Origin: Rhodoferax fermentans
GTDB lineage: Bacteria; Pseudomonadota; Gammaproteobacteria; Burkholderiales; Burkholderiaceae_C
DNA: 64,000 nucleotides
Direction: 5' to 3'
Assembly: GCF_002017865.1 (NCBI RefSeq)
Contig: NZ_MTJN01000002.1
Span: 2,790,001 to 2,854,000, forward strand
The translations under genes and the position numbers were made by a program. Below are positions 1,416-55,475 of the stretch, piece after piece. Position 1 is the stretch's first letter; every line of letters begins with the position of its first letter. Under the pieces are notes generated by a model. It had not been told where the DNA came from. It made no database searches and worked only from the letters and a program-made list of their open reading frames with translations.

Positions 1416-1447
1416 CTAGCCCTTTTGCATCAAGGGCTAAGTGCTCT
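1416..1447 (+). repeat. 32-base interspersed repeat, copy 1
   Basis: This copy follows the pattern CTAGCCC, 17 bases, then an 8-base tail (here AGTGCTCT) related to GTAGCTAT. It lies between cowN and the hypothetical gene at 848-1384. The inner part can form a hairpin (AGCCCTT with AAGGGCT). Confidence 0.7.
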
Positions 1448-1546
1448 GAATTGGAGAGTATCTGGCGTGTTCGGCGTGCACCCAAGGCCGTCGCCGTTGT
1501 GTGACAAAGCCGCCAAAACAGCGGCGCCCAGTTCAGTGCCGGGCGC

Positions 1547-1819
1547 TCAGAAACACTCGGTTTCGAGCTGGTCAAGCCAGGCCAGACCGGTCTCGTCGTG
1601 TCGGGCCTCCAGCAGCTCGCGGATCTGGTTGACAAAACTCGACAGCAGCAACTGGTCGTCGTAACGCATACCTTCGGTGGCGTTGCGGCGCTGGAAGAAA
1701 TAGGCCCAGAATGGGTCGTTTTGCCCCTGGGTGTGGGCCTCGATGCGGGCAATCATGCGGGCGGCCTGGCCGTCGAAATCAATGCCTTTGAAGCTGCGGT
1801 AGCGGTCAACGGTGTTCAT
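1547..1819 (-). CDS. cowN: CowN, protein sustaining nitrogen fixation in the presence of CO
   Basis: This 90-residue protein matches the CowN family in length and pattern: an N-terminal VDRYRSFKGIDFDG, a central FWAYFFQRR and a C-terminal ELLEARHDETGLAWLDQLE. CowN is known from Rhodobacter capsulatus and other diazotrophs as a small protein that protects Mo-nitrogenase from inhibition by carbon monoxide. It starts 6 bases after the FmdB-type gene ends and is the last clear member of the minus-strand cluster draT-draG-arsC-like-fmdB-cowN, so it is probably expressed with the Dra proteins under nitrogen-fixing conditions. Confidence 0.85.
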   Translation of the reverse strand: MNTVDRYRSFKGIDFDGQAARMIARIEAHTQGQNDPFWAYFFQRRNATEGMRYDDQLLLSSFVNQIRELLEARHDETGLAWLDQLETECF

Positions 1820-1825
1820 GTCAGA

Positions 1826-2077
1826 TCAGATGTTTTTCTTGCCTTGCAGCAGTTTGGCTTTGTCGGATGGGCTGTAGTTGTCAAACAGGCCCTGGGCGGC
1901 GGCAACACGGCGGTGTGCCATACGGATGGCTTCGATCTTGCCGGCCGGGGCAATCGGCGAGACACATTTGGTCAGCGCCACGCTGGCGCAGGCTGGACAG
2001 GCGGGGGTGCTGCCAGAGCGCACCAGCGCCTCAAAGTGGTGGCCGCAGGCCTGGCATTGGTAGTCATACAGGGGCAT
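1826..2077 (-). CDS. FmdB-family zinc ribbon protein
   Basis: This 83-residue protein begins MPLYDYQCQACGHHFE, the hallmark of the FmdB/CxxC zinc-ribbon family. Two CxxC pairs (Cys8/Cys11 and Cys27/Cys30) would bind one zinc. The C-terminal half is basic and polar. The family has been called a putative regulatory protein, but its biochemical role is unclear. A longer frame exists upstream, but the start at 2077 is where homology begins. It sits 13 bases downstream of the ArsC-like gene and 6 bases upstream of cowN, which points to one transcript. Confidence 0.8.
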   Translation of the reverse strand: MPLYDYQCQACGHHFEALVRSGSTPACPACASVALTKCVSPIAPAGKIEAIRMAHRRVAAAQGLFDNYSPSDKAKLLQGKKNI

Positions 2078-2090
2078 GGTGATCTCCGGT

Positions 2091-2513
2091 TCAAAGGGGT
2101 GAGCTGCAGTGGCCTGCGGCAGCGGCGCAGCCTTCGAGCGAGCCAGGCTGTGGCGCCTGTTCACCCAGGCCGACCCAGGCGTGCACCGCAGCGGTATCAA
2201 AGCCCACCATGCGTTGCTCACCCACAGCCATCAACGGACGACGGATCAGCAAAGGCTGTGCCAGCAGCAGCGCCAGCGCGGCATCGGCGCTGAGCGACTC
2301 TGGCACCACCTCGCCGGACTTGACCTGGGGTGCCGCACGGTTGAACCAGTCCGGCACCGCCAGAGGGCTCAAAAACAGGAGCAGCTCCTCCTCAGTCCAT
2401 GGGGTCAGGAGCAGGTTTTTGACATCAAGGGTGTGGTGGGCGGCGAGTAACAAAGCCTTTTGTCTGGCGTTGCCGCCACAGCCGGGTTTTTCATAAAAGC
2501 TGATGTGTGCCAT
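2091..2513 (-). CDS. ArsC-family nitrogenase-associated protein
   Basis: This 140-residue protein has the thioredoxin-like ArsC/Spx fold signature. It begins HISFYEKPGCGGNARQK with Cys12 in the redox-loop position, and continues to a central LIRRPLMAVGEQRMVGFD, which resembles the conserved Arg-Pro segment of ArsC proteins. A subfamily of these proteins is found only beside nif genes and is annotated as nitrogenase-associated, with unknown function. It starts 10 bases after draG ends. The C-terminus beyond residue 120 is low in complexity. Arsenate reduction is unlikely given this setting. Confidence 0.8.
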   Translation of the reverse strand: MAHISFYEKPGCGGNARQKALLLAAHHTLDVKNLLLTPWTEEELLLFLSPLAVPDWFNRAAPQVKSGEVVPESLSADAALALLLAQPLLIRRPLMAVGEQRMVGFDTAAVHAWVGLGEQAPQPGSLEGCAAAAGHCSSPL

Positions 2514-2523
2514 GGCGAGGTTC

Positions 2524-4306: not shown

Positions 4307-4351
4307 GAACAGTTTTTCACGTTTGAGCGAATGGATGGCGTCGCGACCAGC

Positions 4352-4425: not shown

Positions 4426-4438
4426 AGGAAGCCACCGC

Positions 4439-5370: not shown

Positions 5371-6378
<1,008 letters not shown>

Positions 6379-6386
6379 TTGGCCCA

Positions 6387-6478
6387 CCCCCCGTTGCTTG
6401 CTCACTGCGTGTAGCCGCATCCCCCCTCAAGGGGGCGGCCCCAGCGGCCTGGCATAGCCAGATCCGCGGGGCCCCTGG
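6387..6478 (+). repeat. Paired-hairpin element between nifH and nifD
   Basis: The element contains a CCCCC/GGGGG hairpin (6422-6435) and a second hairpin CTGGC-ATA-GCCAG (6449-6461). A sister copy lies between nifD and nifK. The second stem differs from its sister by paired changes that keep base pairing, which suggests it acts as RNA. There is no T-run, so it is not a simple terminator. Confidence 0.75.
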
Positions 6479-6546
6479 CAACGCTGTATCTCGCTGACCG
6501 CAGTACCGCTAGCAACGCCTACTTTTTTATCACCGGAGTTACCACC

Positions 6547-8004
6547 ATGACCGCCACCGTTGAAGAGCGCAAGGCCACCAACAAGGCCCTGATTGAAGAA
6601 GTGCTGAAGGCCTACCCCGAAAAAATGGCCAAGCGGCGCGCCAAACACCTCAGCACTTTTGAAGAAGGTCGCCCCGATTGCGGGGTCAAGTCCAACATCA
6701 AGTCGCTGCCTGGCGTGATGACCATTCGTGGCTGCGCCTATGCGGGTTCCAAAGGGGTGGTCTGGGGCCCGATAAAGGACATGGTGCACATCAGCCATGG
6801 CCCGGTCGGGTGTGGCCAGTACTCCTGGGCCAATCGCCGCAATTACTACATTGGCACCACCGGCATCGACTCCTTTGTGACGATGCAGTTCACCTCTGAC
6901 TTCCAGGAGAAGGACATTGTTTTTGGCGGCGACAAGAAGCTCGACAAAATCATCGACGAGATCCAGGTGCTTTTCCCGCTGAACAAAGGCATCTCGATCC
7001 AATCCGAGTGCCCGATTGGGCTGATTGGTGACGACATCGAGGCCGTCTCCAAGAAAAAGAGCAAGGAGTACGAAGGCAAGACCATCGTGCCCGTGCGTTG
7101 TGAAGGTTTCCGGGGTGTCAGCCAGTCGCTGGGCCACCACCTGGCCAATGACGCCATCCGCGACTGGGTGTTCGACCGCACCGACACCGGTCACACCTCG
7201 CAGTTTGTGTCGACACCGTATGACGTGGCCATCATTGGTGACTACAACATCGGTGGTGATGCTTGGTCCAGCCGCATCCTGCTCGAAGAAATGGGTCTGC
7301 GTGTGATCTCGCAGTGGTCCGGTGACGGCACCATCGCTGAAATCGAGAACACCCCCAAGGCCAAGCTCAATGTGCTGCACTGCTACCGCTCGATGAACTA
7401 CATCAGCCGGCACATGGAAGAAAAGTACGGCATCCCATGGGTGGAGTACAACTTCTTTGGCCCGAGCAAGATCGAAGCCAGCCTGCGCGAGATCGCCAGC
7501 CACTTTGACGACAACATCAAGGCCAAGGCCGAAGAGGTGATTGCCAAGTACAAACCGCTGATGCAGGCTGTCATCGACAAATACAAACCCCGTCTGCAAG
7601 GCAAGAAAGTGATGTTGTATGTGGGCGGTCTGCGTCCGCGTCACGTGATTGGCGCCTACGAAGACCTGGGTATGGAAATTGTGGGCACCGGCTACGAGTT
7701 CGCCCACAACGACGACTACCAGCGCACCACCCACTACGTCAAAGACAGCACGCTGATTTATGACGATGTGACGGGTTACGAGTTTGAGCACTTTGTGGAA
7801 GGCATCAAGCCCGACCTGGTGGGCTCAGGCATCAAGGAAAAGTACGTGTTCCAGAAGATGGGTGTGCCGTTCCGCCAGATGCACAGCTGGGACTACTCCG
7901 GCCCCTACCACGGGTATGACGGCTTTGCCATCTTTGCCCGTGACATGGACATGGCGATCTCCAGTCCGGTCTGGGGTTTGACCAAGGCCCCCTGGAAGAA
8001 ATGA
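6547..8004 (+). CDS. nifD: NifD, nitrogenase MoFe protein alpha chain
   Basis: NifD pairs with NifK in the alpha2-beta2 MoFe protein that reduces dinitrogen. The 485 residues include the P-cluster ligands Cys63, Cys89 and Cys155, and the FeMo-cofactor ligands Cys279 (in [12 protein letters not shown]) and His446 (in [17 protein letters not shown]). The [12 protein letters not shown] block identifies the molybdenum enzyme. The start at 6547 follows a GGAG-type site (CACCGGAGTTACCACC). It is transcribed with nifH and nifK, separated from each by about 160 bases carrying related hairpin elements. Confidence 0.98.
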
Positions 8005-8005: not shown

Positions 8006-8097
8006 TCCCCCCGTTGCTTGCTCGCTTCGCGTAGCCGCCTCCCCCCTCAAGGGGGCGCATCCAACGGCCCGGCAAAGCCGGTTCCGTGGATGCTCTG
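8006..8097 (+). repeat. Paired-hairpin element between nifD and nifK
   Basis: This is the sister copy of the element between nifH and nifD. It has the same CCCCC/GGGGG hairpin, followed by CCGGC-AAA-GCCGG at 8069-8081. I estimate about 75% identity over the first 60 bases. It begins just after the nifD stop codon. Confidence 0.75.
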
Positions 8098-8160
8098 GCC
8101 GATGCGCGGCGAAGCGCGCTGAACGGATCAACCCACGCCCACTACCTTTAGGAGCCCACC

Positions 8161-10270: not shown

Positions 10271-10302
10271 AGGGCAGACCAGTTGGATCTGCCCTGTTTT
10301 AT
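10271..10302 (+). terminator. Candidate terminator of nifHDK-ferredoxin operon
   Basis: An 8-base stem AGGGCAGA/TCTGCCCT with a 9-base loop is followed by GTTTTATAT. The T-run is short, so termination may be partial. Confidence 0.55.
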
Positions 10303-10317
10303 ATGGAAAAAGTGCCT

Positions 10318-10349
10318 CTAGCCCTTAATCTATAGGGGCTTGTAGCAAT
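10318..10349 (+). repeat. 32-base interspersed repeat, copy 2
   Basis: CTAGCCC, exactly 17 bases, then GTAGCAAT. It lies in the intergenic region before the GntR gene. Confidence 0.75.
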
Positions 10350-10532
10350 TGATTTCATAGCGTTGTGTGGCTACTGCGTTGGCCACGCAGCGCGCTTGGC
10401 TGGTGCGTGGTGGCTTTCCCCGCATGGCACAGGAACGGCAGACGGTGGTATGGAGCCAACACCTGCCATACAAGAGCCAACTTGCTGCCTTCAGAAGGCC
10501 TGTTTTGTCAAGCCAGGTGCGATACTTGAGCC

Positions 10533-25456: not shown

Positions 25457-26797
25457 ATGACTTTGAACGACTCAAGCGCCACACCCAAGCCTGTGGGCTG
25501 GCTGGCCACCCTGAAGGTGTATCTGGAACCGGCCTCGCTGCGTATGCTGCTGCTGGGATTTTCGGCGGGCCTGCCGCTGCTGCTGGTGCTGGGCACGCTG
25601 AGCTTCTGGCTGCGTGAGGCGGGCATTGACCGCACCACCATCGGTTACCTGAGCTGGGTGGGCCTGGCCTACGCCTTCAAATGGGTCTGGGCGCCGCTGG
25701 TGGATCGGCTGCCGATCCCGCTGCTGACGCGTTGGCTGGGGCGCAGGCGCAGTTGGCTGCTGCTGTCACAGCTCGCCATTCTGACCGGGCTGGTGGCCAT
25801 GAGTTTCAACGACCCGCAGGTGGCGCTGGCGCCGGTGGTGTGGGGCGCATTGGCGGTGGCTTTTGGCTCGGCCACACAAGACATTGCGCTGGACGCGTTT
25901 CGCATCGAGTCGGCCGATGTGAAGCGGCAGGCCGCACTGGCCGCGTCCTACCAGACCGGTTACCGGCTGGCCATGATCTGGGCCGGTGCCGGTGTCTTGT
26001 GGGTGGCGGCACGGGCCCAGCCTGAGGGTGTGCTGGGTTACCAGCATGGCGCTTGGCAGACCGCTTATCTGGTGATGGCGGCCAGCATGCTGCTGGGGGT
26101 GTTGACGGTGCTGCTGTCGGACGAACCCCTGCGCCGAGTTTTGCCGCCCAGCAAAAACCTGGCCGAGTGGCTGCACGGTGCGCTGGTGGCGCCGTTTGCC
26201 GATTTTTTGAGCCGTTTTGGCTGGCAGGCCGCGCTGATCCTGGCGCTGATCGCCACCTACCGCATCAGCGATGTGGTGATGGGCATCATGGCCAACCCGT
26301 TTTATGTGGACATGGGTTACAGCAAGGACGAGGTGGCGGCGGTGACCAAGGTGTTTGGTGTGATCATGACCCTGGTGGGCGCGTTTGTGGGTGGTGTCTT
26401 GTCCATGCGGCTGGGGGTGATGCAGGTGCTGATGCTGGGCGCGGTCCTCAGTGCCGCCAGCAACCTGCTGTTTGCGTATCTGAGCACCCTCGGGCACGAC
26501 CTGAGCTGGCTGATTGCGGTGATTTCGGCCGACAACCTGGCCGGTGGCATGGCGTCGGCGGCGTTCATTGCTTACCTGTCGAGTCTGACCAATGTGGCGT
26601 ATTCGGCCACCCAGTACGCGCTGTTCAGCTCCATGATGCTCTTGCTGCCGAAGTTCCTGGCGGGTTATTCGGGGCGTTATGTGGACAGTTTTGGTTACCC
26701 CAGTTTTTTTGTCGCCACCGCTTTGCTAGGTGTGCCGGTGTTGCTGCTGGTGTGGCTGGCCTCAAGGCTAAAAGTGGCCTCTAGCCCTGATGAATAA
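25457..26797 (+). CDS. AmpG-family MFS transporter (muropeptide permease-like)
   Basis: This 446-residue, 12-helix protein matches the AmpG group, which imports anhydro-muropeptides for cell-wall recycling: FSAGLPLLLVLGTLSFWLREAGID, KWVWAPLVDRLPIP, ATQDIALDAFRIE and ASYQTGYRLAMI. The start at 25457 is preferred because the extension to 25418 lacks a site. The last codons and stop (TAA at 26795-26797) lie within a copy of the 32-base repeat, so the C-terminus KVASSPDE is repeat-encoded. Confidence 0.85.
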   Translation: MTLNDSSATPKPVGWLATLKVYLEPASLRMLLLGFSAGLPLLLVLGTLSFWLREAGIDRTTIGYLSWVGLAYAFKWVWAPLVDRLPIPLLTRWLGRRRSWLLLSQLAILTGLVAMSFNDPQVALAPVVWGALAVAFGSATQDIALDAFRIESADVKRQAALAASYQTGYRLAMIWAGAGVLWVAARAQPEGVLGYQHGAWQTAYLVMAASMLLGVLTVLLSDEPLRRVLPPSKNLAEWLHGALVAPFADFLSRFGWQAALILALIATYRISDVVMGIMANPFYVDMGYSKDEVAAVTKVFGVIMTLVGAFVGGVLSMRLGVMQVLMLGAVLSAASNLLFAYLSTLGHDLSWLIAVISADNLAGGMASAAFIAYLSSLTNVAYSATQYALFSSMMLLLPKFLAGYSGRYVDSFGYPSFFVATALLGVPVLLLVWLASRLKVASSPDE

Positions 26798-26812
26798 AGG
26801 GCTGGTAGCTAT
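26781..26812 (+). repeat. 32-base interspersed repeat, copy 3
   Basis: A canonical copy: CTAGCCC, 17 bases, GTAGCTAT. It supplies the stop codon of the AmpG-like gene. Confidence 0.85.
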
Positions 26813-26895
26813 TTGTTTTGAAATCTTTGTGTCGGCGTGTTTACCTATCTTTACGCACACTTCAAGCCTGCGAAGCGCTGGCTGACTAGACTGCC

Positions 26896-29170: not shown

Positions 29171-29229
29171 TGCCTCAACGCGGGCGCTGTCACCCAGGTT
29201 GATCTGCCGGATTGGCATCAAAATGGCCT

Positions 29230-29261
29230 CTGGCCCTTTTGAAATAAGGGTTGATAGCTAT
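29230..29261 (+). repeat. 32-base interspersed repeat, copy 4
   Basis: CTGGCCC, 17 bases, ATAGCTAT. Read on the minus strand, its TAG (29258-29260) is the stop codon of waaF. Confidence 0.8.
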
Positions 29262-32954: not shown

Positions 32955-34330
32955 GCCAGGTCCCTGACCACCGCCATCGCCTGTTCGACCCGCTCCACCG
33001 CGTGGATCGTCAGGCCCTCAAAGTCTTTGGACTGGAGGTTTTTGGGCAGGTTGGCCTTGGGCACCACCGCCACACTGAAACCCAGCTTGGCGGCCTCTTT
33101 GAGTCTTTCCTGACCGCGCGGGGCCGGGCGCACCTCGCCCGCCAAGCCCACCTCACCAAACGCAAAAAAGCCCTTGGGCAGTGGCTTGCCACGCAGGCTT
33201 GAAGTAATTGATAGCAACACCGCCAGATCCGCTGCGGGCTCCGAGATCCTGACGCCCCCAACGGCGTTGACAAACACATCCTGGTCCATACACGCCACAC
33301 CGGCGTGACGGTGCAATACCGCCAGCAACATCGCCAGCCGGTCCTTGTCCAGCCCGACACTCAGGCGCCGTGGGCTGGGGCCACCACTGTCCACCAGCGC
33401 CTGGATTTCCACCAACATCGGGCGTGTGCCTTCGAGCGTGACCATGACACAGCTTCCGGGCACCGGTTCGGCATGCTGGCTCAAAAAGATGGCGCTCGGG
33501 TTGCTCACGCCCTTGAGGCCTTTCTCGGTCATGGCAAACACACCAATCTCGTTGACCGCACCAAAGCGGTTCTTGATGGCGCGTACCAGCCTAAAGCTCG
33601 AATGCGTGTCACCCTCGAAATACAGCACGGTGTCGACCATGTGCTCCAGCACCCGTGGCCCGGCCAGAGCGCCCTCTTTGGTGACGTGACCGACCAGCAC
33701 AATACACACCCCGCTGGCCTTAGCAGCACGCGTCAGGTGCGCAGCACATTCCCGCACCTGGGCCACCGAACCGGGTGCCGAGGTGAGTTGTTCGGAGTAC
33801 ACCGTCTGGATCGAGTCGATCACCGCGATGTCGGGCCGGGTCGATTCCAGCGTGGCCAGGATTTTCTCCAGCCCGATCTCGGCCAGCACCCGCACCTGTG
33901 AGCCGTCCAGCCCCAGGCGCCGGGCGCGTAAGGCCACCTGGGCACCACTTTCTTCCCCGGTGACATACAGCGTGTTTTGACCGCTGCGCTGCAGCGAGTC
34001 CAGCGCCTGCAGCAGCAGGGTCGATTTGCCGATGCCGGGGTCACCACCGATCAGCACCACCCCCCCTTCGACCATGCCGCCACCCAGTACCCGGTCCAGT
34101 TCGTCGTGGCCGGTGGGGATACGCGCCATGTCTACCGCGTCGATGTCACCCAGGATTGCCAACTCGGCCGTTTTGGCCAGCGAGGCGAAGCGGTTTTTGG
34201 TGGGTACGCTGCTCTCAGGGGCCGACTCCACCAGGGTGTTCCAGGCGTGGCAATGCGGGCATTTGCCCAGCCATTTGGGGCTGATGCCACCACATTCTGA
34301 ACACACGAAAACGGTTTTGTCTTTGGCCAT
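32948..34330 (-). CDS. radA: RadA/Sms, DNA repair ATPase
   Basis: RadA promotes branch migration and processing of recombination intermediates. The 460-residue protein has the N-terminal CxxC-x-CxxC zinc finger (VCSECGG and CPHCHAW), Walker A GGDPGIGKSTLL, the RadA-specific KNRFG motif and a C-terminal Lon-protease-like domain (VGLAGEVRPAPRGQERL). A LexA-like palindrome lies 13 bases upstream of the start, which suggests SOS control. Confidence 0.96.
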   Translation of the reverse strand: MAKDKTVFVCSECGGISPKWLGKCPHCHAWNTLVESAPESSVPTKNRFASLAKTAELAILGDIDAVDMARIPTGHDELDRVLGGGMVEGGVVLIGGDPGIGKSTLLLQALDSLQRSGQNTLYVTGEESGAQVALRARRLGLDGSQVRVLAEIGLEKILATLESTRPDIAVIDSIQTVYSEQLTSAPGSVAQVRECAAHLTRAAKASGVCIVLVGHVTKEGALAGPRVLEHMVDTVLYFEGDTHSSFRLVRAIKNRFGAVNEIGVFAMTEKGLKGVSNPSAIFLSQHAEPVPGSCVMVTLEGTRPMLVEIQALVDSGGPSPRRLSVGLDKDRLAMLLAVLHRHAGVACMDQDVFVNAVGGVRISEPAADLAVLLSITSSLRGKPLPKGFFAFGEVGLAGEVRPAPRGQERLKEAAKLGFSVAVVPKANLPKNLQSKDFEGLTIHAVERVEQAMAVVRDLAY

Positions 34331-38473: not shown

Positions 38474-38596
38474 GTGTCTGTCGGTGCGCTGCAGCCCACT
38501 TGGCGCGCCACTTTTGTCCAATAATGGGTGCGTGGACAGAGGGGCTGTAGCGACCTGCTGTTGCTGGGATGACCGGGTGGGCATCTTGTATTTTTG

Positions 38597-38628
38597 ATAG
38601 CTACTAGGCCAATAAATACAAGGGCTAG
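38597..38628 (-). repeat. 32-base interspersed repeat, copy 5
   Basis: On the minus strand: CTAGCCC, 17 bases, GTAGCTAT. Read on the plus strand its flank provides AGGAG (38626-38630) just before the ATG of the P-type ATPase. Confidence 0.85.
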
Positions 38629-38636
38629 GAGCCAAA

Positions 38637-41264
38637 ATGACTGATAAAAACACGCCAGGTGCGTCACCGCTGGATGACACGCTGGCAGCGTCCGGTCTGA
38701 CGGCCGCGCAGGCGGCAGAGCGTTTGCAGCAAGACGGCCCCAACAGCCTGCCGACCGACCAACCGCGTGGCCTGTGGGCCATCGTGCGCGAGACCTTGTC
38801 TGACCCGATGTTTGCCCTGTTGCTCGGTGCCGCTGTCTTGTACCTGCTGCTCGGTGACTTGCAGGAAGGGCTGATCCTGCTGGGCTTGGTGTTGGTGGTG
38901 CTGGCGCTGACCCTGTACCAGGAAGGCAAGACCGAACACGCGCTGGCCAGCCTGCGTGATTTGACCAGCCCGCGTGCGTTGGTGCTGCGCGACGGTGAAC
39001 CGCGCCGTGTTGCCGGGCGTGAGGTGGTGCAGGGCGACCTGCTGATCCTGGCCGAGGGTGACCGTATTGCCGCTGACGCGCTGCTGGTGCAGGGTGAGGA
39101 GGTGCAGGTGGATGAGTCGCTGCTCACCGGTGAGCCCTTGCCGGTGGACAAACAGGCGGCGGTGGACGCGGGTGTGTTGCCAGCTGCGCCGTCCTCGCAG
39201 CTGTTTTCTGGCAGCCTGCTGGTACGCGGCCATGGCCGGGCACGGGTCACCGCCACTGGCGCACGCAGCGAGATTGGTCACATTGGCAGCGCCCTGGAGA
39301 GCCTCACAAGTGAGGCCTCACCGCTGCGCCTGCAAACCGCGCAACTGGTCAAAACACTGGCGCTGATCGCGGTGGTGGCCAGCCTGTGCCTGGTGCTGGC
39401 TTATGGCTTGCTCAAGGGCGACTGGCTCGGTGCGCTGCTGGCGGGCATTGCGCTGGCGATGGCACTGCTGCCACAGGAGTTCAGCGTGGTGCTCACGGTG
39501 ATCCCGGCGCTGGGCGCCTGGCGTTTGTCCAAACACAAGGTGCTGACCCGACGTATTGCCGCGATCGAGACCCTGGGCGCCACCAGTGTGTTGTGTGTTG
39601 ACAAAACCGGCACCCTGACCGAAAACCGCATGACCGTGGCCCAGCTGTATGCCGAGTCGGCCACCAGCCTTGCGGGTGGTGTGATCCAGGGGGAGAGCCT
39701 GGGCGTGGACTACGCCCGCAGCACCGAGTTGCCGGAGGCCTTCCACACGCTGGTGGAGTACTCGATCTTGGCCAGCATGAGTGACCCGTTCGACCCGATG
39801 GAGAAAGCCTTTCACCGCCTGGGTCAGCATTTTTTGAAAGACACCGAACACCTGCACCGCGACTGGACCCTGATGCAGCACTACGGCCTGACGCCCGAGT
39901 TGCGCGCCATGTCCCACGTCTGGAAAGCGGTAGAGGGCCAGGCCCATGTGGTGGCCGCCAAAGGTGCGCCCGAGGCGATTGTGGATTTGTGCCACATGGA
40001 CAGTGCCGCCCAGGCACGCGTGGCGGCGGCAGTAGAGGTGATGGCGGCGCAGGGCCTGCGGGTGCTGGGTGTGGCACGGTCCCGTTTTGAGGGCATGGAC
40101 TGGCCGGCCATCGAGCACGACTTTGCCTTTGAATTTGTCGGCCTGCTGGGCCTGGCCGACCCGTTGCGGCCAGAAATCCCGGACGCTGTGGCGCAGGCGC
40201 GCGGTGCGGGTATCCGGGTCGTGATGATCACCGGTGACTACCCGGCCACCGCCCAGGCCATTGCGTTGGCGGCGGGCCTGCCGGTGCCAGCGGTGGCTGG
40301 CCCCAACCAAGACTGGCTGTTGACGGGTGATGATGTGAATCAGCTCGACGATGCCGCCTTGCAGCAGCGCATGGACACGGTGAGTGTTTGCGCCCGGATT
40401 GCCCCGACCCAAAAGCTGCGTATTGTGCAAGCGCTCAAAGCCAACGGTGAGGTGGTGGCCATGACCGGTGACGGCGTCAACGACGCGCCAGCGCTGAAAG
40501 CCGCCCATGTGGGTGTGGCCATGGGCGAGCGCGGCACAGACGTGGCGCGAGAGGCGTCGTCGATGGTGCTGCTGGACGACAACTTTGCCGGGCTGGTGCA
40601 GGCGGTGCGGCTGGGGCGGCGCATTTTTGACAACCTGCGCAAGTCCATGTGTTACATCCTGGCGGTGCATGTGCCGATTGCTGGCATGGCGCTGCTGCCG
40701 GTGCTGCTGGGCTGGCCCACGGTGTTGTTTCCCTTGCACATTGCGTTTCTGGAGCTGGTGATTGACCCTGCCTGCTCGATGGTGTTTGAGAACGAACCAC
40801 CCGAGCCCGACCTGATGCAGCGCCCGCCGCGCGATGTGACGACACCCTTGTTTGGTGGTCTGACGCTGCTGTGGGCCCTGCTGCAGGGCCTGGGCGCGCT
40901 GGCTGTGGTGCTGTTGGCCACCTGGTGGGGCATGGCCCATTTGGGGGAAGGTGCGGCGCGGGCCTTTGCTTTTGCCACCCTTGTGGCGGGCAACCTGGCG
41001 CTGATCCTGGTCAACCGCTCGCGCAGTGGCTCCCTGGTGAAGAGTTTGCGGGTGCCGAACCGCAGCTTGTGGTGGGTGTGTGCGGCTGCACTGGCCCTGA
41101 TGGCGCTGGCCCTGTACCAGCCCTGGCTGGCAGGCCTGTTCATGTTTGATGTGTTGCCGCTGCCCTGGCTGGCCGTCGCACTGGGGCTGGGTGGCCTGCT
41201 GGTGGCGGTGTTTGAGGGTGTCAAAACCGCCGGGCTCCTGCACACAGCAGCCCGGGCTCGCTGA
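38637..41264 (+). CDS. P-type cation-translocating ATPase (P2-like)
   Basis: This 875-residue ion pump has about ten membrane helices, an actuator TGEPLPVDK motif, the phosphorylation site DKTGTLTENRM at Asp322, and TGDGVNDAPALKAAHVG in the hinge. In membrane helix 4 it has LLPQEFSVVLTV where Ca-ATPases have PEGLP, and helix 6 reads LELVIDPACS. The transported ion is therefore uncertain. The AGGAG ribosome-binding site comes from a repeat copy 8 bases upstream. Confidence 0.88.
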   Translation: MTDKNTPGASPLDDTLAASGLTAAQAAERLQQDGPNSLPTDQPRGLWAIVRETLSDPMFALLLGAAVLYLLLGDLQEGLILLGLVLVVLALTLYQEGKTEHALASLRDLTSPRALVLRDGEPRRVAGREVVQGDLLILAEGDRIAADALLVQGEEVQVDESLLTGEPLPVDKQAAVDAGVLPAAPSSQLFSGSLLVRGHGRARVTATGARSEIGHIGSALESLTSEASPLRLQTAQLVKTLALIAVVASLCLVLAYGLLKGDWLGALLAGIALAMALLPQEFSVVLTVIPALGAWRLSKHKVLTRRIAAIETLGATSVLCVDKTGTLTENRMTVAQLYAESATSLAGGVIQGESLGVDYARSTELPEAFHTLVEYSILASMSDPFDPMEKAFHRLGQHFLKDTEHLHRDWTLMQHYGLTPELRAMSHVWKAVEGQAHVVAAKGAPEAIVDLCHMDSAAQARVAAAVEVMAAQGLRVLGVARSRFEGMDWPAIEHDFAFEFVGLLGLADPLRPEIPDAVAQARGAGIRVVMITGDYPATAQAIALAAGLPVPAVAGPNQDWLLTGDDVNQLDDAALQQRMDTVSVCARIAPTQKLRIVQALKANGEVVAMTGDGVNDAPALKAAHVGVAMGERGTDVAREASSMVLLDDNFAGLVQAVRLGRRIFDNLRKSMCYILAVHVPIAGMALLPVLLGWPTVLFPLHIAFLELVIDPACSMVFENEPPEPDLMQRPPRDVTTPLFGGLTLLWALLQGLGALAVVLLATWWGMAHLGEGAARAFAFATLVAGNLALILVNRSRSGSLVKSLRVPNRSLWWVCAAALALMALALYQPWLAGLFMFDVLPLPWLAVALGLGGLLVAVFEGVKTAGLLHTAARAR

Positions 41265-42488: not shown

Positions 42489-43630
42489 CAGTCCTGGACC
42501 TGGACTTGCACCGGCACCCGTGGCGCCAGTGCACACATCAGCTCGTAACCCAGGGTGCCCGCGTGTTGGGCCACCTCGTCAATGCTGAGCACGACACCAT
42601 TGCTGGCGCGGCCCCACAGCGTGACCTCGGTGCCAAAACCAACCGCCTGGCCTGCCGCCACCAGCGGTGTGAGGTCCACCGCGAGCATGTCCATGCTGAC
42701 GCGTCCGAGGGTGCGGGTGCGCACGCCAGCCACCAGCACCGGTGTGCCGGTCGGGCAAATGCGTGGGTAACCGTCGGCATAACCGCAGGCCACCACGCCC
42801 ACAACGGTTGGGTGTTCTGCCACAAACTTGGAGCCATATCCGATGCTAGCCCCCGTATCTATTGATTGAGTAGCTATGAGTTTTGAGGACAGCGTCATGG
42901 TCGGCAACAAATCCCAGTCGGTGATGTTGTGCTCTGGAAAGTCGGGCGAGCTGCCATACAGCACGATGCCGGGCCGGATCCAGTCCGAGGCCAGGGCCTC
43001 GTCGTTGCCTTGGGCTGCATCGTCGTCGGGACGGGTGTGGCGCAGGGTGGCCGCGCTGTTGCTCACCGAGCGTTCGCCCGGCAAATCACGCGTGAACTGG
43101 TTGAACACCTTGATCTGGTGTTGGATGCCACGCTGGCCATCGGCGTCGCTGAAGTGCGTCATGAACGAGATCTCGTCCACCTGGGGCAGGGCGTTGAGGC
43201 GGCTCCAGGCCGACCGAAAACGCTCGGGCGTGAAGCCCAGGCGGTTCATGCCCGAGTTCATTTTGAGGAACACCCGGTGTGGCACATTGGTCTTGTGCGC
43301 CGCCAGCATGTCGATCTGTTCGTCGCAATGCACCGCATGCCACAGGTCCAGGCGCGAGCACAGCTCCAGGTCACGCGCCTCAAACACACCTTCGAGCAGC
43401 AGGATTGGGCCGCGCCAGCCCAGGCTTCGCACACGCTGGGCCTCATCCAGGTCGAGCAGGGCAAAACCGTCGGCACTGCGCAGGCCCTCATAAGCGCGTT
43501 CGATGCCGTGGCCGTAGGCGTTGGCTTTGACCACCGCCCAGGCTTTGGCGTCGGGTGCTGCGCGGCGGGCACGCATCAGGTTGTGTTGCAGTGCAGCAGG
43601 ATGGATGGTGGCGAGGATAGGGCGTGGCAT
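42488..43630 (-). CDS. alr: Alanine racemase
   Basis: This 380-residue PLP enzyme makes D-alanine for peptidoglycan. It has the PLP lysine in AVVKANAYGHG (Lys35) and the catalytic tyrosine in IGYGSKF (Tyr265). A 32-base repeat lies in frame at 42846-42877 and encodes residues just before Tyr265 (ATQSIDTGA region). The start at 43630 is where homology begins. It is followed by the HD-GYP-like gene in an apparent operon. Confidence 0.94.
   Translation of the reverse strand: MPRPILATIHPAALQHNLMRARRAAPDAKAWAVVKANAYGHGIERAYEGLRSADGFALLDLDEAQRVRSLGWRGPILLLEGVFEARDLELCSRLDLWHAVHCDEQIDMLAAHKTNVPHRVFLKMNSGMNRLGFTPERFRSAWSRLNALPQVDEISFMTHFSDADGQRGIQHQIKVFNQFTRDLPGERSVSNSAATLRHTRPDDDAAQGNDEALASDWIRPGIVLYGSSPDFPEHNITDWDLLPTMTLSSKLIATQSIDTGASIGYGSKFVAEHPTVVGVVACGYADGYPRICPTGTPVLVAGVRTRTLGRVSMDMLAVDLTPLVAAGQAVGFGTEVTLWGRASNGVVLSIDEVAQHAGTLGYELMCALAPRVPVQVQVQD
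42846..42877 (+). repeat. 32-base interspersed repeat, copy 6 (inside alr)
   Basis: CTAGCCC, 17 bases, GTAGCTAT, inside the alr coding frame without disrupting it. Confidence 0.8.
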
Positions 43631-45567: not shown

Positions 45568-45641
45568 TCCGGCGCCTCAGCCCCCCTCACCCCGACCCTC
45601 TCCCGTTGCGTGAGAGGGTGAGAGCAGTCGCTACGCGATGT

Positions 45642-46700
45642 TCACATGGAACGGCTTGCCAGCCGCAAAGCGGCGTCGCGCAGGGCGTCTTCGGTGGCCG
45701 TCCAGCCCAGGCAGGCGTCGGTGATCGACACGCCGTAACGCAGGTCTTCGGGCTTGCCCAGTTTCTGGTTGCCTTCCTGAATGTTGGACTCCAACATCAC
45801 GCCCTTGATGGCGCGGTTGCCCTCCACCAGCTGGCCCACCACGTCCTTGAGCACCAGGCTTTGCAGGTTGTGGTTTTTGCGCGAGTTGGCGTGGCTGCAG
45901 TCGACCACGATGTTGACCGGCAGCTTGGCCGCCGCCAGCTCGTCGGCGGCCTCGGCCACCGACACCGAGTCGTAGTTGGGCACACTGCCGCCGCGCAGGA
46001 TCAAATGGCCAAACGCATTGCCCCGGGTGTGGGTCAGTGCCACCTGGCCAAATTCATTGATGCCCAGAAACGCGTGGGGCTGGGCAGCGGACAACATCGC
46101 GTTCACCGCCACGTCCAGGCTGCCGTCGGTGCCGTTTTTGAAGCCGACCGGGCTCGACAGGCCGCTGGCGAGTTCGCGGTGGGTCTGGCTCTCGGTGGTG
46201 CGGGCACCAATCGCGCTCCAGGCAATCAGGTCGCCCAGGTACTGCGGGGTGATCGGGTCCAGCGCCTCGGTGCCGCAGGGCAGGCCCATGTCGTTGAGGT
46301 CTACCAGCAGCTTGCGGGCGATCTGCAGGCCTTCTTCGATGCGAAAGCTGTCGTCCATGTGCGGGTCATTGATCAGGCCCTTCCAGCCGACGGTGGTGCG
46401 TGGTTTCTCAAAATACACCCGCATCACCACAAACAGCTGGTCTTGCACCTCGGCCGCCAGCGCCTTGAGGCGCTGTGCGTAGTCCATGGCGGCCGGGATG
46501 TCGTGAATCGAGCACGGCCCCACCACCACCAGCAGGCGAGGGTCGCTGCCTTGCAGGATGTTGGCCACCGTCTGGCGCGCCTGGCTGACGGTGCGCATGG
46601 CACGGTCACTGGCGGGCACCGCGTCGTGCAGCGCGGTGGGTGACAGCAGGGTTTGCTGCGACAGCACGTTCAGGTTTTCAAAGGCGTTCGGGAAGGTCAT
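45642..46700 (-). CDS. aroG: 3-deoxy-7-phosphoheptulonate (DAHP) synthase, class I
   Basis: This 352-residue enzyme starts the shikimate pathway from phosphoenolpyruvate and erythrose 4-phosphate. It shows VVVGPCSIHD, MRVYFEKPRTTVGWKGLINDP, VGFKNGTDG and IVVDCSHANSRK, the class I pattern. Which aromatic amino acid inhibits it cannot be told here, so the paralogue letter is tentative. A repeat copy lies just upstream of its start. Confidence 0.94.
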   Translation of the reverse strand: MTFPNAFENLNVLSQQTLLSPTALHDAVPASDRAMRTVSQARQTVANILQGSDPRLLVVVGPCSIHDIPAAMDYAQRLKALAAEVQDQLFVVMRVYFEKPRTTVGWKGLINDPHMDDSFRIEEGLQIARKLLVDLNDMGLPCGTEALDPITPQYLGDLIAWSAIGARTTESQTHRELASGLSSPVGFKNGTDGSLDVAVNAMLSAAQPHAFLGINEFGQVALTHTRGNAFGHLILRGGSVPNYDSVSVAEAADELAAAKLPVNIVVDCSHANSRKNHNLQSLVLKDVVGQLVEGNRAIKGVMLESNIQEGNQKLGKPEDLRYGVSITDACLGWTATEDALRDAALRLASRSM

Positions 46701-46724
46701 GATGGTGTGATGAAAAATGTGGCT

Positions 46725-46756
46725 CTGGCCCTGATTTTACGTGGGCTGGCAGCTAT
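46725..46756 (+). repeat. 32-base interspersed repeat, copy 7
   Basis: CTGGCCC, 17 bases, GCAGCTAT, 25 bases upstream of the aroG start on the opposite strand. Confidence 0.7.
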
Positions 46757-46998
46757 GCTAAATATAGTGCGCTGGCGGCCATGGCGTGAGGATGCTGGGT
46801 GAGCAGTATCAGCCAGGCCACTTTTCTTGACAAGACTTTGCAAACTCAACTGCCAGCGGCTGACCCCATCAGCTCGGGCAGCTACTGATCATGTAGCGCA
46901 TGTGTTTGCCGGGTGTGACCCTTAGCGCGCTGGCGCACAGAGCCCAGCCGGCAAAACGTCCACAGTGGGGCCTTGTTCACCACACTGAAGGATGCGCG

Positions 46999-47826: not shown

Positions 47827-48251
47827 GCGGGTTGTCTGCGGGCTTGGCCTCGTTAGGTGTCGGCTGGGTATGTATGAAAACTGTCTCTAGCCCTTATTTC
47901 AAAAGGGCTGGTAGCTATGACTGCTGTAGCTGTTGCGAGGTGGCAGAGGCCTGCGTTGCGCAGTGTCGCCAATCATCAGTGCCGTCATTTGCTGCCCATG
48001 CGTGCGCCATTTTCGCCATACAGCCGAAGGCAGATTGAGGCTGAAAGCGGGTTCACACGACAGGCAGCTTTCAGTTTCGCCAGCCCCCCCGCTCAGCAGC
48101 CTTTCATGACCTTCGGTATCGTTCCCTTGGCGATCGGTGGCTACACGCTCCATAGCGGTCATATGCTCCCGTTAAATTGCGAATTCGAGTGCTTGCTGTA
48201 CTGATGTCCAATGGGCAAACTGTCCGTCAGAATCTGATGCGCCGCAAGGCA
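47827..48251. other. Intergenic region at the edge of the accessory island
   Basis: This 425-base stretch holds repeat copy 8 (47887-47918) and an inverted repeat CTGAAAGC/GCTTTCAG (48041-48048 and 48067-48074). A minus-strand frame at 47899-48162 exists but does not look like a protein. GC falls toward the right. Confidence 0.55.
47887..47918 (+). repeat. 32-base interspersed repeat, copy 8
   Basis: CTAGCCC, 17 bases, GTAGCTAT, with a near-perfect hairpin (AGCCCTT/AAGGGCT). Confidence 0.85.
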
Positions 48252-51812: not shown

Positions 51813-52940
51813 TCAGAGCGAACGGAACATGCGCCCGGGGTTGAAGATGTTGGCCGGGTCAAACTCGGCTTTCAGGCGCGTATGGATCTGGTCGAGTGGC
51901 CGCTCCAATGGTTCAAATCGGTCGCTAGCCCTTGTTGAGTCTGGATTATTAGCTCTGAAAAGCATAGTTGTTCCGCCCACGGCCTGGCTCAGGTCGCGCA
52001 ACTTGGCGGCGGCCGACTCGGGTGCCCAGACCCAGCGCAGGCCGCCGTGCCATTCCACCAGCTGCGGCCAGAGCAGGTTCAGCCCCGGGGCGGTCTGCGG
52101 CAGGCTCAGGCGCCACAGGGCCTGGCCCGGGTGGGCGGTGGCGTCAAAAAACGGCAGGGTCTGGTCGCGGCAGGCAGTCCAGTCGGCGCTGGCTAGGGCG
52201 GGGTCCACGGTGTGGCCGGGCAGATCCTGCGTCATTCTGGTGATGGCCGAGTCCACCGCCGCACCCGCGCCGCGCAGGCGCACAAAGAGTTGGCCGACCT
52301 CGCCGGGTTCGTGATCACCTTGTTCCCAGCGGCTGGCGTTGAGCGGCAGCGGCTGCGCGCCCCAGCGGTGCAGCTGTTCCAGCGCGCGGGCCTGGTCAAC
52401 CTCGAACACCAGGGTGGCTTCGGCCGCAGGCTGCGGCATCACCTTGAGCGACACCTCGGTCAGCAGGCCCAGGATGCCCAGGCTGCCCACCATCAGGCGG
52501 CTGAGGTCGTAGCCAGCCACGTTTTTCATGACCTGGCCACCAAAAATCAGGTGTTCAGCCCGGCCATTGACCATCTGCAGACCCAGCACATAGTCACGCA
52601 CACCGCCTACGCTGGCGCGCGACGGGCCACTGAGCCCGGCTGCGACCATGCCACCCACGGTGCCACGCCCGCCAAAACGCGGGGGCTCAAACGCCAGGCA
52701 CTGGCCCTGCTGTGCCAGCGTGGCCTCCAGCTCAGTCAGTGGGGTGCCCGCGCGTGCGGTGATGACCAGTTCGGTCGGTTCGTAACTGACGATGCCGGTG
52801 TGGCCGCTGGTGTCGAGTAACTCACCTTGCAGCAGCTCGCCATAAAAATCCTTGCTGCCGTGGCCCCGGATGCGCAGTGGTGTGTGGGCTGCGGCGGCGG
52901 CGCGGATGGTGTCGATCAGGGCGGGCAGGGTGTCGGTCAT
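51813..52940 (-). CDS. glcE: GlcE, glycolate oxidase FAD-binding subunit
   Basis: This 375-residue subunit has an FAD-binding domain with IRGHGSKDFYG, FGGRGTVGGMVAAGLSGPSRASVGGVRDYVLG and MKNVAGYDLSRLMVGSLG. It works with GlcD and GlcF to oxidise glycolate to glyoxylate. A 32-base repeat lies in frame near the C-terminus (51925-51956), encoding the FRANNPDSTRA region. It begins 129 bases after the SMP-30 gene ends. Confidence 0.93.
   Translation of the reverse strand: MTDTLPALIDTIRAAAAAHTPLRIRGHGSKDFYGELLQGELLDTSGHTGIVSYEPTELVITARAGTPLTELEATLAQQGQCLAFEPPRFGGRGTVGGMVAAGLSGPSRASVGGVRDYVLGLQMVNGRAEHLIFGGQVMKNVAGYDLSRLMVGSLGILGLLTEVSLKVMPQPAAEATLVFEVDQARALEQLHRWGAQPLPLNASRWEQGDHEPGEVGQLFVRLRGAGAAVDSAITRMTQDLPGHTVDPALASADWTACRDQTLPFFDATAHPGQALWRLSLPQTAPGLNLLWPQLVEWHGGLRWVWAPESAAAKLRDLSQAVGGTTMLFRANNPDSTRASDRFEPLERPLDQIHTRLKAEFDPANIFNPGRMFRSL
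51925..51956 (+). repeat. 32-base interspersed repeat, copy 9 (inside glcE)
   Basis: CTAGCCC, 17 bases, TTAGCTCT, a degenerate copy lying within the glcE reading frame. Confidence 0.65.
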
Positions 52941-53069
52941 GGCAGTGCGGGCAGGAAAAGGTGGCCCATGTTAGGGCCAAGTCCTGACGGCAGGCTTGAA
53001 TTTTTTGAAACGTCTGTGTTCGAAAAATTGTCAAACTCCCGCCGCCCCCAATGCTGCGGCCGAGCCGAC

Positions 53070-54038
53070 TCAGTCGCGGAAAAACTGCACCGGCAGCCCG
53101 GCCACCGCCACCCGCATTGCCACCACCTGGCCCGACAACGGGTAGGTGGCCAGCTCGTCGGCAGGGCGGTTTTTGCTGGCGCTGGTGAGGTACAGGGTTT
53201 TGAGGTCTTCGCCACCAAAACAGGGCATGGTGGGGCAGACCAGCGGGGTCGGGATGTCGGCCAGCAGGCGGCCATCCGGCGAAAACTGGCAGACGCGCTG
53301 GCCTTCAAACATGGCGACCCAGTAGTTGCCCGCCACGTCGACGGCGGCGCCATCCGGGCGGCCACCGTAGACCAAGGGTGTGGCGGCCGTGCCTGGCCAG
53401 CCTTCGGGTTTGGGCTCAAAGCTGGCAAACACCCGCTGTGCTGACATGGCGCCGCTGCTGGGCTCAAAGTCCCAGGCCCAGACCGTGTGGCTGGGGGAGT
53501 TGGCCCAGTACAGGGTGCGGTTGTCGGGGCTCCAGGCCAGGGCGTTGGCGGTGGTGAAGCTGCCGTTGGGGGCGATCTTGCAGCTGATATGGACCTGGCC
53601 CGGGTGCTCGGGGTGCTGGGTGTCCAGGCAATAGAGGCCCACGTTTTTGAGCTGGCGCGTCTCGTCCAGGGTGCCGATCCAGAGGCGACCCTGGGCGTCA
53701 CATTTGCCGTCGTTGGCGCGCATTTGGGTGGGGTCGTAGTCCAGCGTGGCCAGCAGTTGTAACTCACCACCCCATTCGCGGGCGCGGAACACGCCGTGGC
53801 GCAGGGCGATCACCAGCCCGCCGCTGGCAGCAGGCGCGATACAGCCGGGCTCGCAGGGCAAGTCCCAGGTGTCGACCGTGCCCATGTAGGTGTTGGCGCG
53901 CAGCACCTGGCGGCCCGGGATGTCGAGCCAGTACAACATCTGCTCTTGCGGGTGCCAGAAGGGCGACTCACCCAATTGGCAACGGTGGGGGGCGACGGTT
54001 TGCCAAGTGGCTGGGTGCTCGGGGACGGAAGGATTCAT
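53070..54038 (-). CDS. SMP-30/gluconolactonase family protein
   Basis: This 322-residue protein has the six-bladed SMP-30 pattern: LGESPFWHPQEQMLYWLDI, RANDGKCDAQGRLWIGT, ANALAWSPDNRTLYWANS and PDGAAVDVAGNYWVAMFEG, with the metal-ligand Glu, Asn and Asp positions. Such proteins hydrolyse sugar lactones. Clustering with glycerate kinase suggests sugar-acid or glyoxylate metabolism. The start at 54038 gives MNPSVPEHP. Confidence 0.9.
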   Translation of the reverse strand: MNPSVPEHPATWQTVAPHRCQLGESPFWHPQEQMLYWLDIPGRQVLRANTYMGTVDTWDLPCEPGCIAPAASGGLVIALRHGVFRAREWGGELQLLATLDYDPTQMRANDGKCDAQGRLWIGTLDETRQLKNVGLYCLDTQHPEHPGQVHISCKIAPNGSFTTANALAWSPDNRTLYWANSPSHTVWAWDFEPSSGAMSAQRVFASFEPKPEGWPGTAATPLVYGGRPDGAAVDVAGNYWVAMFEGQRVCQFSPDGRLLADIPTPLVCPTMPCFGGEDLKTLYLTSASKNRPADELATYPLSGQVVAMRVAVAGLPVQFFRD

Positions 54039-54101
54039 GTGGGGCAGAGTGGCATCAAAGGGAGGTGCCATTGTGCCCGGCAAACCGCGGCCTGTAGCGG
54101 T

Positions 54102-55388
54102 TCAGGCCGTGGGCGGGTTGATCAGAATCGCGCGGAAATCGTTCACATTGGTCAGTGTGGGCCCGCAGACCACCGAGTCGCCCAGCGTCTGGAAAAAGCT
54201 GTGGGCGTCGTTGTTGTCCAGGTAACTGCGCGGGTTCATGCCCAGCGCCCAGGCACGCGCCAGGGTGTCGGGGGTGAGCAGGGCACCTGCAATCTCCTCG
54301 GCACCGTCGACGCCGTCGGTGTCTGCCGCCAGCGCGTAGACCCCCGGGGTGCCTGCCAGTGCGATGCCCAGCGCCAGCAAAAACTCCACATTGCGCCCGC
54401 CCCGGCCTGTGCCGCGCAGGGTCACCGTGGTCTCACCGCCGCTCAGCAACACGCAGGGCGCGGGGAACGGCTGGCCCTGGCGGACCACTTGGTGGGTCAG
54501 GCCCGCCAGCACCTTGGCCACATCGCGCGACTCGCCCTCCAGGCTGTCGCTCAGGATGTGGGGCGTGAACCCGGCTGCCTGGGCCACCTGGGCTGCCGAC
54601 TGCAGGGCGATCTGCGGTGTCGTGACCAGCTTGACCACACTGTGGGCCAGACGCGGGTCACCGGGCTTGATGGTTTCCCCCGCGCCACTATCGAGCAATG
54701 CGCGTGCTGCCGAGGGGAGCTTGATCTGGTAACGCTGGACGATGGCCAGCGCATCGGCGCAGGTGCTGCTGTCACCCACCGTGGGGCCGGAGGCGATGTC
54801 CATCGGGTTGTCGCCCGGCACGTCCGAGATCAGCAGTGTGAGCACTTTAGCCGGGTGGCAGGTCGCGCCTAGGCGGCCCCCCTTGATGTCTGAGAGGTGG
54901 CGGCGCACACAGTTCATCTCAGAAATGCTGGCGCCGCTGGCCAGCAGGGCGGCATTGACCGCCTGTTTGTCTTGCAGCGTCAGACCCTCACCCGGTGCCA
55001 CCAGCAGGGACGAGCCACCGCCCGAGATCAGCGCTATCACCAGATCGTCAGCTGTCAAACCGGTGACGAGGTCGCGCAGACGTTGTGTGGCCTGCAGTCC
55101 GGCAGCATCGGGCACCGGGTGGGCGGCCTGCACAATCTCGATACGCTGACAGGGCACCTCGTAGCCGTAGCGGGTGATCACCAGGCCCTCGAGGGGGCCA
55201 GGCCAATGGTCTTCGAGCGCACGCGCCATGGCGGCCGAGGCTTTGCCCGCACCGATCACGATGGTGCGGCCCTTGGGTGGCGGCGGCAGATGGGGTGGCA
55301 GGCATAACGCGGGCTGCGCGGCGGCCACGGCGGCATCGAACATCTGGCGCAGCAGGGCGCGCTGCTGGGTGACTGGGCTGGGCGTCAT
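54102..55388 (-). CDS. Glycerate 2-kinase (MOFRL family, GckA/TtuD)
   Basis: This 428-residue kinase phosphorylates D-glycerate to 2-phosphoglycerate. It shows VIGAGKASAAMARALE, LISGGGSSLLVAPGEGLTL, ISDVPGDNPMDIASGPT and a C-terminal MOFRL domain (GGRNVEFLLALGIAL, then ADTDGVDGAEEIAGAL). It can feed glyoxylate from glycolate oxidation back into central metabolism, which fits the glc genes downstream. Confidence 0.93.
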   Translation of the reverse strand: MTPSPVTQQRALLRQMFDAAVAAAQPALCLPPHLPPPPKGRTIVIGAGKASAAMARALEDHWPGPLEGLVITRYGYEVPCQRIEIVQAAHPVPDAAGLQATQRLRDLVTGLTADDLVIALISGGGSSLLVAPGEGLTLQDKQAVNAALLASGASISEMNCVRRHLSDIKGGRLGATCHPAKVLTLLISDVPGDNPMDIASGPTVGDSSTCADALAIVQRYQIKLPSAARALLDSGAGETIKPGDPRLAHSVVKLVTTPQIALQSAAQVAQAAGFTPHILSDSLEGESRDVAKVLAGLTHQVVRQGQPFPAPCVLLSGGETTVTLRGTGRGGRNVEFLLALGIALAGTPGVYALAADTDGVDGAEEIAGALLTPDTLARAWALGMNPRSYLDNNDAHSFFQTLGDSVVCGPTLTNVNDFRAILINPPTA

Positions 55389-55443
55389 GGGCGGTTGGGG
55401 TGGGCTTTGGCAGATAAACTGCGTTTATACGCCAAATGGGCTT

Positions 55444-55475
55444 GTAGCCCTTTTTCCATATGGGGTGGCAGCTAC
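55444..55475 (+). repeat. 32-base interspersed repeat, copy 10
   Basis: GTAGCCC, 17 bases, GCAGCTAC. It lies between the glycerate kinase start and the amtB terminator. Confidence 0.65.

Follow-up and report, generated by a model that had tools for sequence, protein, structure and literature searches.

What is the palindromic repeat that recurs across a 64,000-nucleotide stretch of the Rhodoferax fermentans genome, and how did it come to lie inside genes? The stretch, hereafter the window, covers positions 2,790,001 to 2,854,000 of contig NZ_MTJN01000002.1 (assembly GCF_002017865.1), that is C2:2790001-2854000 of our genome G000, which totals 4.47 Mb. An earlier note, made from the sequence alone, had described at least ten copies of the form CTAGCCC-N17-RTAGCTAT, listing ten cores, as a rigid 32-base palindrome that supplies gene parts and recalls the gene-invading elements of Rickettsia. 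The motif proved to be a longer, genome-wide repeat present in many Comamonadaceae, and it is probably a recognised site that evolves in place.

A genome-wide repeat with rigid spacing

The window was scanned with the core pattern, allowing up to three mismatches, together with shuffled controls. Twelve matches were obtained, against a mean of 0.83 and a maximum of 3 after shuffling; only four of them are exact (26781, 38597 on the minus strand, 42846 and 47887). With up to two mismatches the whole genome holds 428 copies, split almost equally between the strands (203 plus, 225 minus), compared to 11 for the reversed pattern. These counts, far above chance, confirm that the motif is a genuine genome-wide repeat. 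Rfam gave no match above the gathering score in the window.

A 66-column weight matrix was built from 120 copies of the same genome, and the stretches scanned total 341,404 bases. Most of the 120 copies come from stretches picked by pattern match, which inflates the conservation of the core columns, and the matrix rests on one Rhodoferax, so that other dialects are under-scored. The reversed control gave no match of at least 22 bits in the 341,404 bases. Nine of the ten cores noted earlier scored 39-63 bits. The tenth, in alr (42846), scored below 10 bits with a first matrix and 20.1 bits with a second; it was accepted as real because eight relatives score 22-33 bits at the same codons, and its reading as a chance match was abandoned once the orthologous alr loci had been scored. 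The eroded copy suspected in radA (33211-33242) and the twelfth pattern match (58392) were rejected, both scoring below 10 bits with the first matrix and both being absent from the 120-copy set.

Relative to the core, conserved columns run from about -20 to +46 or +48, so that the 32-base unit first described stands as a core within a unit of about 66 bp. The consensus of the 120 copies is nTTWTARnnnAAAWTGGCCTCTAGCCCTTATnnAWnAAGGGCTRRTAGCTATnAATWnnRTAGC: a hairpin-capable region lies between two TAGC boxes, beyond which come AT tracts and a third box (RTAGC). The boxes are almost fixed, partly owing to the core-based choice of stretches, while several loop columns are near-random; 26 matrix columns carry at least 1 bit.

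The distance between the boxes is rigid across the family, as confirmed by the addition of a single base, which reduced the matches in R. fermentans from 62 to 0 and left any match in only 26 of 250 family genomes. With the correct spacing the motif was found in 86 of these 250 Comamonadaceae genomes, which represent 56 of 141 genera; the highest count for one genome is 210, against 0 or 1 for reversed controls, and a stricter hairpin pattern still matched in 47 genomes. Loss is patchy within genera, two genomes (G214 and G219) having no copy. In other families of the order the motif is at chance level, with 1-4 matches in 12 of 146 genomes compared to 22 of 146 for the reversed control (hand count). 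The motif marks many freshwater Comamonadaceae genomes, with hundreds of copies and a species-specific spelling.

There are no recent duplicates among the 120 copies, of which the most similar pair is 80% identical. At 75% identity we counted 12 similar pairs against 0.8 in shuffled columns, an excess perhaps due to unequal copy quality. One 32-base copy is shared between a 20-kb contig (G000:C1:15429) and the chromosome (G000:C2:3300286); contig C1 may duplicate chromosomal DNA.

Motif copies inside genes

In-frame copies do exist inside genes, as the earlier note had it for alr and glcE. An invasion of alr and glcE is not supported: at the alr site none of the 80 orthologous loci shows an indel, and over the motif part of glcE the alignment with locus L222 differs by one 3-base gap only. 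Insertion into these two genes was rejected on these grounds. Scores at the alr site range from -83 bits in Variovorax (-82.6 in Hydrogenophaga) to +33 in Rhodoferax, with eight loci at 22 bits or more. Among the loci examined, alr bases close to the motif occur only in the Rhodoferax/Polaromonas group and relatives, and not in genera that lack the repeat. One Polaromonas alr shares its spelling with neighbouring copies on the same contig, and that of Rhodoferax is Rhodoferax-like. The protein changes as well: the usually conserved glycine preceding SVGYG/TVGYG in Alr is replaced by arginine in L224 and L275, proline in L245, serine in L233 and leucine in L256.

In argF, a search expression parsed 12 of 30 Rhodoferax loci and 17 of 29 loci of other genera. 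All 12 parsed Rhodoferax loci have 26 residues, with scores from -20 to 62 bits, and for the 17 others the length is 23, 24 or 26 residues and the score lies between -54 and -27 bits. The length of argF does not track the presence of the motif. In alr and argF the motif is coding sequence that drifted into the local spelling, without insertion.

Further in-frame copies were found in metG and other genes; recC and a gene of the UDG family of glycosylases hold one copy each. The comEC-like gene of the host (L126, with a Competence (ComEC) domain) contains two in-frame copies, one per strand.

A different history is seen in moeA (identified by Pfam), where a 77-bit copy lies in frame in a loop. 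The moeA protein was matched in 57 of 60 Rhodoferax genomes, in some by a paralogue or fragment alone, and the 30 best loci were taken for comparison. The insert is kept in 23 of these 30 loci and absent from 7; judged by alignment, moeA carries a true in-frame insertion. The likeness to the gene-invading palindromic elements of Rickettsia drawn in the earlier note holds only in part: it suits moeA, but not alr and argF, which show no insertion, nor glcE, with its difference of 3 bases.

Dialects and the hairpin

The motif is spelt differently from genome to genome; the counts below cover listed copies only. At positions 6 and 20 the C6/G20 spelling was found in 19 of 26 copies in R. fermentans and 27 of 32 used in G271, while G6/C20 prevails in G121 (34/50), G128 (12/20), G004 (12/16) and G217 (12/15). 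In G293 all 27 listed copies read C6/C20, the search pattern having left both positions free, and therefore every one has a stem mismatch. G239 has a form without the hairpin stem. Of the 8 informative genomes, 7 have their majority spelling in the moeA copy too, by a hand tally; the exception is G254, with 14 of 24 copies C/C and 7 of 24 C/G, whose moeA copy is C/G.

The hairpin pairs 4-22 to 9-17 have a pairing probability of 0.58-0.75. Across dialects the stem shows a C-G to G-C exchange alongside the C/C dialect, and within genomes the two sides of the stem show no more covariation than expected, so that preservation of an RNA hairpin by covariation is unsupported. The earlier note had ascribed the fixed spacing to selection on a structure or on a mobilising protein; the structure is weakened by the missing covariation and by the 27 C/C copies, and as for the protein, RAYT would be the candidate. 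Dispersed and orthologous sites drift together, position by position, while loop columns stay free, a pattern that suggests one shared reader and not the copying of whole units.

Placement relative to genes

Genes were called by a home-made script whose choice of starts favours the words AGGA, GGAG, GAGG and AAGG, and gaps were counted in the same stretches as the 120 copies. Of the 120 copies, 31 fall between convergent, 6 between divergent and 54 between co-directional genes; another 22 are intragenic by these calls, and 7 are at the edge of a stretch. The same stretches offer 33 convergent, 32 divergent and 90 co-directional gaps of 66 bp or more. Copies thus prefer gene ends and avoid divergent gaps, besides occurring in frame in genes. 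On the right, 54 copies have a gene end close by, and on the left 37; for 18 copies this is true of both sides, for 47 of neither. Ten of the 54 right-side stop codons start exactly at motif position 47. Of the 37 left-side stops, 8 have their end at -20 to -22 and 27 fall between -32 and -11.

Such a pile-up of stops, together with the predicted pairing of the stem, would suit an RNA element, in which a hairpin at the mRNA 3' end acts as terminator or stabiliser. We regard this as very improbable. The consensus of the 120 copies has no U tract after the hairpin and the A/T polarity of the flanking tract is independent of the side on which the gene lies, which led us to reject an intrinsic terminator; moreover, copies sit mid-gene in moeA, argF and alr, and neither the missing covariation nor the C/C and hairpin-free dialects are expected of a conserved RNA stem.

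The same placement would also follow if the motif were bound by a chromosome-organising or topological protein, such as a nucleoid protein or gyrase, at hundreds of weakly selected sites. These would be best placed past transcription units, where supercoils collect; gyrase binds enterobacterial clusters of repetitive extragenic palindromes (REPs). The 31 convergent against 6 divergent copies, although the available gaps number 33 and 32, and the alternation of AT tracts with GC-rich boxes fit this explanation, and a co-evolving protein would fit in-place evolution and dialects equally well. It demands, however, that every one of hundreds of sites be under selection, even at the altered glycine positions of Alr, the information content is far above the need of a binding site, and the loss of all copies from G214 and G219 is patchy. 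On balance, we consider a chromosome protein unlikely, if a serious contender.

The RAYT gene

REPs are associated with single-copy tyrosine transposases (RAYTs) resembling those of IS200/IS605, and such an enzyme could have spread the motif to gene ends from a parent copy 3' of its own gene. R. fermentans has one Y1 transposase, assigned to the RAYTs by NCBIfam NF047646 at 77.9 bits, slightly below the cut-off of 80. Homologues occur in 237 of 250 family genomes, with and without the motif alike. This breadth makes an enzyme available for dispersal; being near-universal, its mere presence was rejected as the cause of the motif.

A motif copy of at least 10 bits follows the RAYT stop in 18 of 39 motif-rich genomes against 1 of 31 poor ones (Fisher 3.5e-5, shared ancestry not being taken into account in the RAYT counts), and in none of 422 control tiles. 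In the rich loci, fourteen other genes served as a control: a same-sense copy was seen in 2 of 174 cases, and an opposite-sense copy in 16 of 174. Compared to this pooled control the same-sense copy of RAYT stands out (Fisher 1.6e-13), but nine of the 16 opposite-sense copies belong to lplT, which has one in 9 of 31 loci, and from this value RAYT does not differ significantly (Fisher 0.22). Since RAYT does not exceed lplT, an old inherited site could explain its copy.

The motif also lacks features that define a RAYT-associated REP (definition in PMC2817692). No GT(A/G)G head precedes the palindrome in the consensus of the 120 copies, and at RAYT loci no inverted motif pair flanks the gene as a rule: the copy, where there is one, sits 3' in sense direction, although four of 20 rich RAYT loci also score 22-51 bits upstream. 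The inverted GGGGTCAGATTCC motif around many RAYTs is a different sequence, found once in 341 kb of R. fermentans stretches. REPs typically occupy convergent and co-directional gaps (PMC3733652), as the motif does, and the moeA insertion would suit a mobile element; the lack of recent duplicates and the copies formed without insertion would not. Dispersal by RAYT is, in our estimate, rather improbable, more so than binding of a chromosome protein.

As a separate observation, an inverted GGGGTCAGATTCCAATTA motif often lies on both sides of the RAYT gene of the family (L062-L091, L152-L191), and the 3' side has GATGTGTCCC or a variant of it. This bracket occurs whether or not the genome carries the repeat.

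A probable recognition site and a possible uptake signal

We propose that the motif would be a double-stranded recognition site of about 66 bp, read by a single trans-acting factor. Copies would be tolerated where they do little harm, namely just past stops, between convergent genes and in protein loops, and new copies could also arise in place through point substitution in coding sequence. Drift of the recogniser's preference would drag the copies along and thereby produce species and genus dialects. We hold it probable that the motif is recognised in this manner and evolves in place.

The DNA-uptake machinery would be the most likely recogniser, a suggestion drawn by analogy to which we give somewhat less than an even chance. 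Biased uptake and recombination of motif-bearing DNA would then keep the motif up, by drive rather than function, as for the DNA uptake sequences (DUS) of Neisseriaceae and the uptake signal sequences (USS) of Pasteurellaceae. DUS and USS sites form in place. Like the motif, they occur in hundreds of copies on both strands, between genes and in frame within them, lie near gene ends, can form stem-loops and have species dialects. With them the motif shares over-representation on both strands, genome-wide dialects and in-place sites in coding sequence; it differs in its 66 bp against 10-12 bp, in being one composite copy rather than short cores, and in belonging to another family. In Neisseria, dialects of the DUS and inverted pairs at terminators are described (PMC3630211). 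Selective DNA uptake is reported for Acidovorax temperans and Verminephrobacter, both Comamonadaceae, and the available text names no signal sequence for it (PMC4212676). The A. temperans locus studied here contains 4 copies in 21 kb. It is conceivable, and slightly less probable than the uptake machinery as recogniser, that the motif is an uptake signal of naturally competent Comamonadaceae, which would be the third such family after Neisseriaceae and Pasteurellaceae.

The moeA inserts are consistent with upkeep of the motif. Eighteen of the 23 score at least 36 bits and 13 at least 58, and over all 23, in a register set by the matrix, mean pairwise identity is 0.74 in strongly conserved columns and 0.49 in weak ones. 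Neutral expectations were simulated; a first set of 17 moeA loci had been selected at 36 bits or more, and the counts above cover all 23 inserts. From the left flank (third-position pairwise identity 0.547), a rate of 0.276 substitutions per site and lineage was obtained, at which 26% of the inserts are expected at 36 bits or more and 1.2% at 58 or more, so that chance is excluded.

Several observations weigh against these proposals. The less diverged right flank of moeA (identity 0.729) gives an estimated rate of about 0.15, and at 0.15 the simulation expects 92% and 39%, so that chance is not excluded. The moeA copy is a real insertion, wanting from the seven Rhodoferax loci, 5 of the 23 retained inserts score 24 bits or less, and the counts take no account of shared ancestry. 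Uptake alone would predict neither the strong bias of copies to gene ends nor the link of a copy to RAYT. Over its 66 bp the motif has 26 columns that carry 1 bit or more, far beyond the 9-12 bp of reported uptake sequences, and an equally rich locus (L238, 4 copies in 21 kb) belongs to Acidovorax defluvii, which did not transform (PMC4212676).

Because the outcome shifts with the neutral rate assumed (0.276 or 0.15), retention of the motif in the moeA loop is likely but not certain. Both this argument and the RAYT contrast became weaker on rechecking; our estimates are unchanged, because the leading claim rests on alr, argF and the dialects.

Copies in the window

Unless stated otherwise, copies of the window lie on the plus strand and match the pattern inexactly. 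Three of them are intergenic: 1396-1461 (core 1416-1447, 3 mismatches, 56 bits), 10298-10363 (core 10318-10349, 63 bits) and 55424-55489 (core 55444-55475, 61 bits). The earlier claim that copies supply gene parts was borne out at three places. The copy at 26761-26826 (core 26781-26812, exact, 63 bits) lies at the end of an AmpG-like MFS gene, whose TAA stop (26795-26797) falls in the core. At 29210-29275 (core 29230-29261, 63 bits) waaF, read on the minus strand, takes its TAG stop (29258-29260) from the copy. At the start of a P-type ATPase gene, the minus-strand copy at 38583-38648 (core 38597-38628, exact, 62 bits) contains both the AGGAG (38627-38631) and the ATG (38637-38639); orthologous copies are present in L219 and L221.

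The alr copy (42826-42891, exact, 20.1 bits) and the glcE copy (51905-51970, 39 bits) lie within genes of the minus strand. Upstream of aroG, the copy at 46705-46770 (core 46725-46756, 52 bits) is orthologous in L219 and L221; L220 has a different hairpin there and is thus no clean empty site for 46725. The copy downstream of a PRC-barrel gene (47867-47932, core 47887-47918, exact, 62 bits) is orthologous in L219 and L220. A possible weak copy inside a gene (61906-61971) scored 20.8 bits with the first matrix only and is not in the 120-copy set.

Two neighbouring features were seen. In the close relative L219 (Alr 95% identical), about 780 extra bases lie beside aroG (5931-6731), and another copy of the motif is found at their junction. 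Around 45577-45651 the window contains the inverted words CCTCTCCC and GAGAGGG, absent at the same place in L219, L220 and L221; this sequence is perhaps a recent insertion in R. fermentans.

Relation to known repeats and significance

A literature search for the sequence strings of the motif gave none in the text available; only the word-pair motifs of PMC5217627 were found, and no account of the length, range, dialects or function of the motif. That paper reports a spaced motif of Acidovorax ebreus, GCTTAT(N)5AAGCG, in 114 copies, of which 107 are intergenic (44 convergent, 4 divergent, 59 co-oriented). Its highest count of motif pairs, 140, is that for Rhodoferax ferrireducens. To our reading, the A. 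ebreus word pair would be the motif in an Acidovorax dialect; its available description gives no length, range, dialects, in-gene evolution or function. The Polaromonas word pair, as given there, matched none of the copies in the loci studied here.

Like REPs with their RAYT, the motif is a palindrome in hundreds of copies at gene ends, with a copy alongside a RAYT; unlike them it has no GTAG/GGAG head and no inverted RAYT pair, is about twice as long, and has copies formed without insertion. With the palindromic elements of Rickettsia it shares in-frame copies inside genes. Those elements are inserted and measure about 150 bp (PMC10969869), whereas of the in-gene copies compared here that of moeA is an insertion, those of alr and argF are not, and that of glcE differs by 3 bases. 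The betaproteobacterial repeat element (BRE), which also occurs in Rhodoferax and Polaromonas, is described as 75-91 bp long, 69% GC and often tandem (PMC3110155); identity with the motif was rejected by description, on length, GC and tandem layout. Separately, a GC-rich pair of 93-bp repeats in the window (6387-6479 and 8007-8099, 82% identical) may be BRE, a likeness of description drawn without sequence comparison.

If the motif were bound by a protein or were of the REP type, it would still be unusual, with dispersed sites respelt together and amino-acid changes in conserved enzymes. In either case the dialects offer a direct handle on the recogniser, through sister genomes with and without the motif. 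Were it an uptake signal, it would be, to our knowledge, the longest and most structured one, and would provide a sequence basis for the selective uptake seen in Acidovorax and Verminephrobacter. Essential enzymes such as alanine racemase would then have been rewritten to spell the motif, genus and species dialects would set limits on the exchange of DNA, and for this abundant freshwater family the obstacles to gene exchange could be read from genomes.

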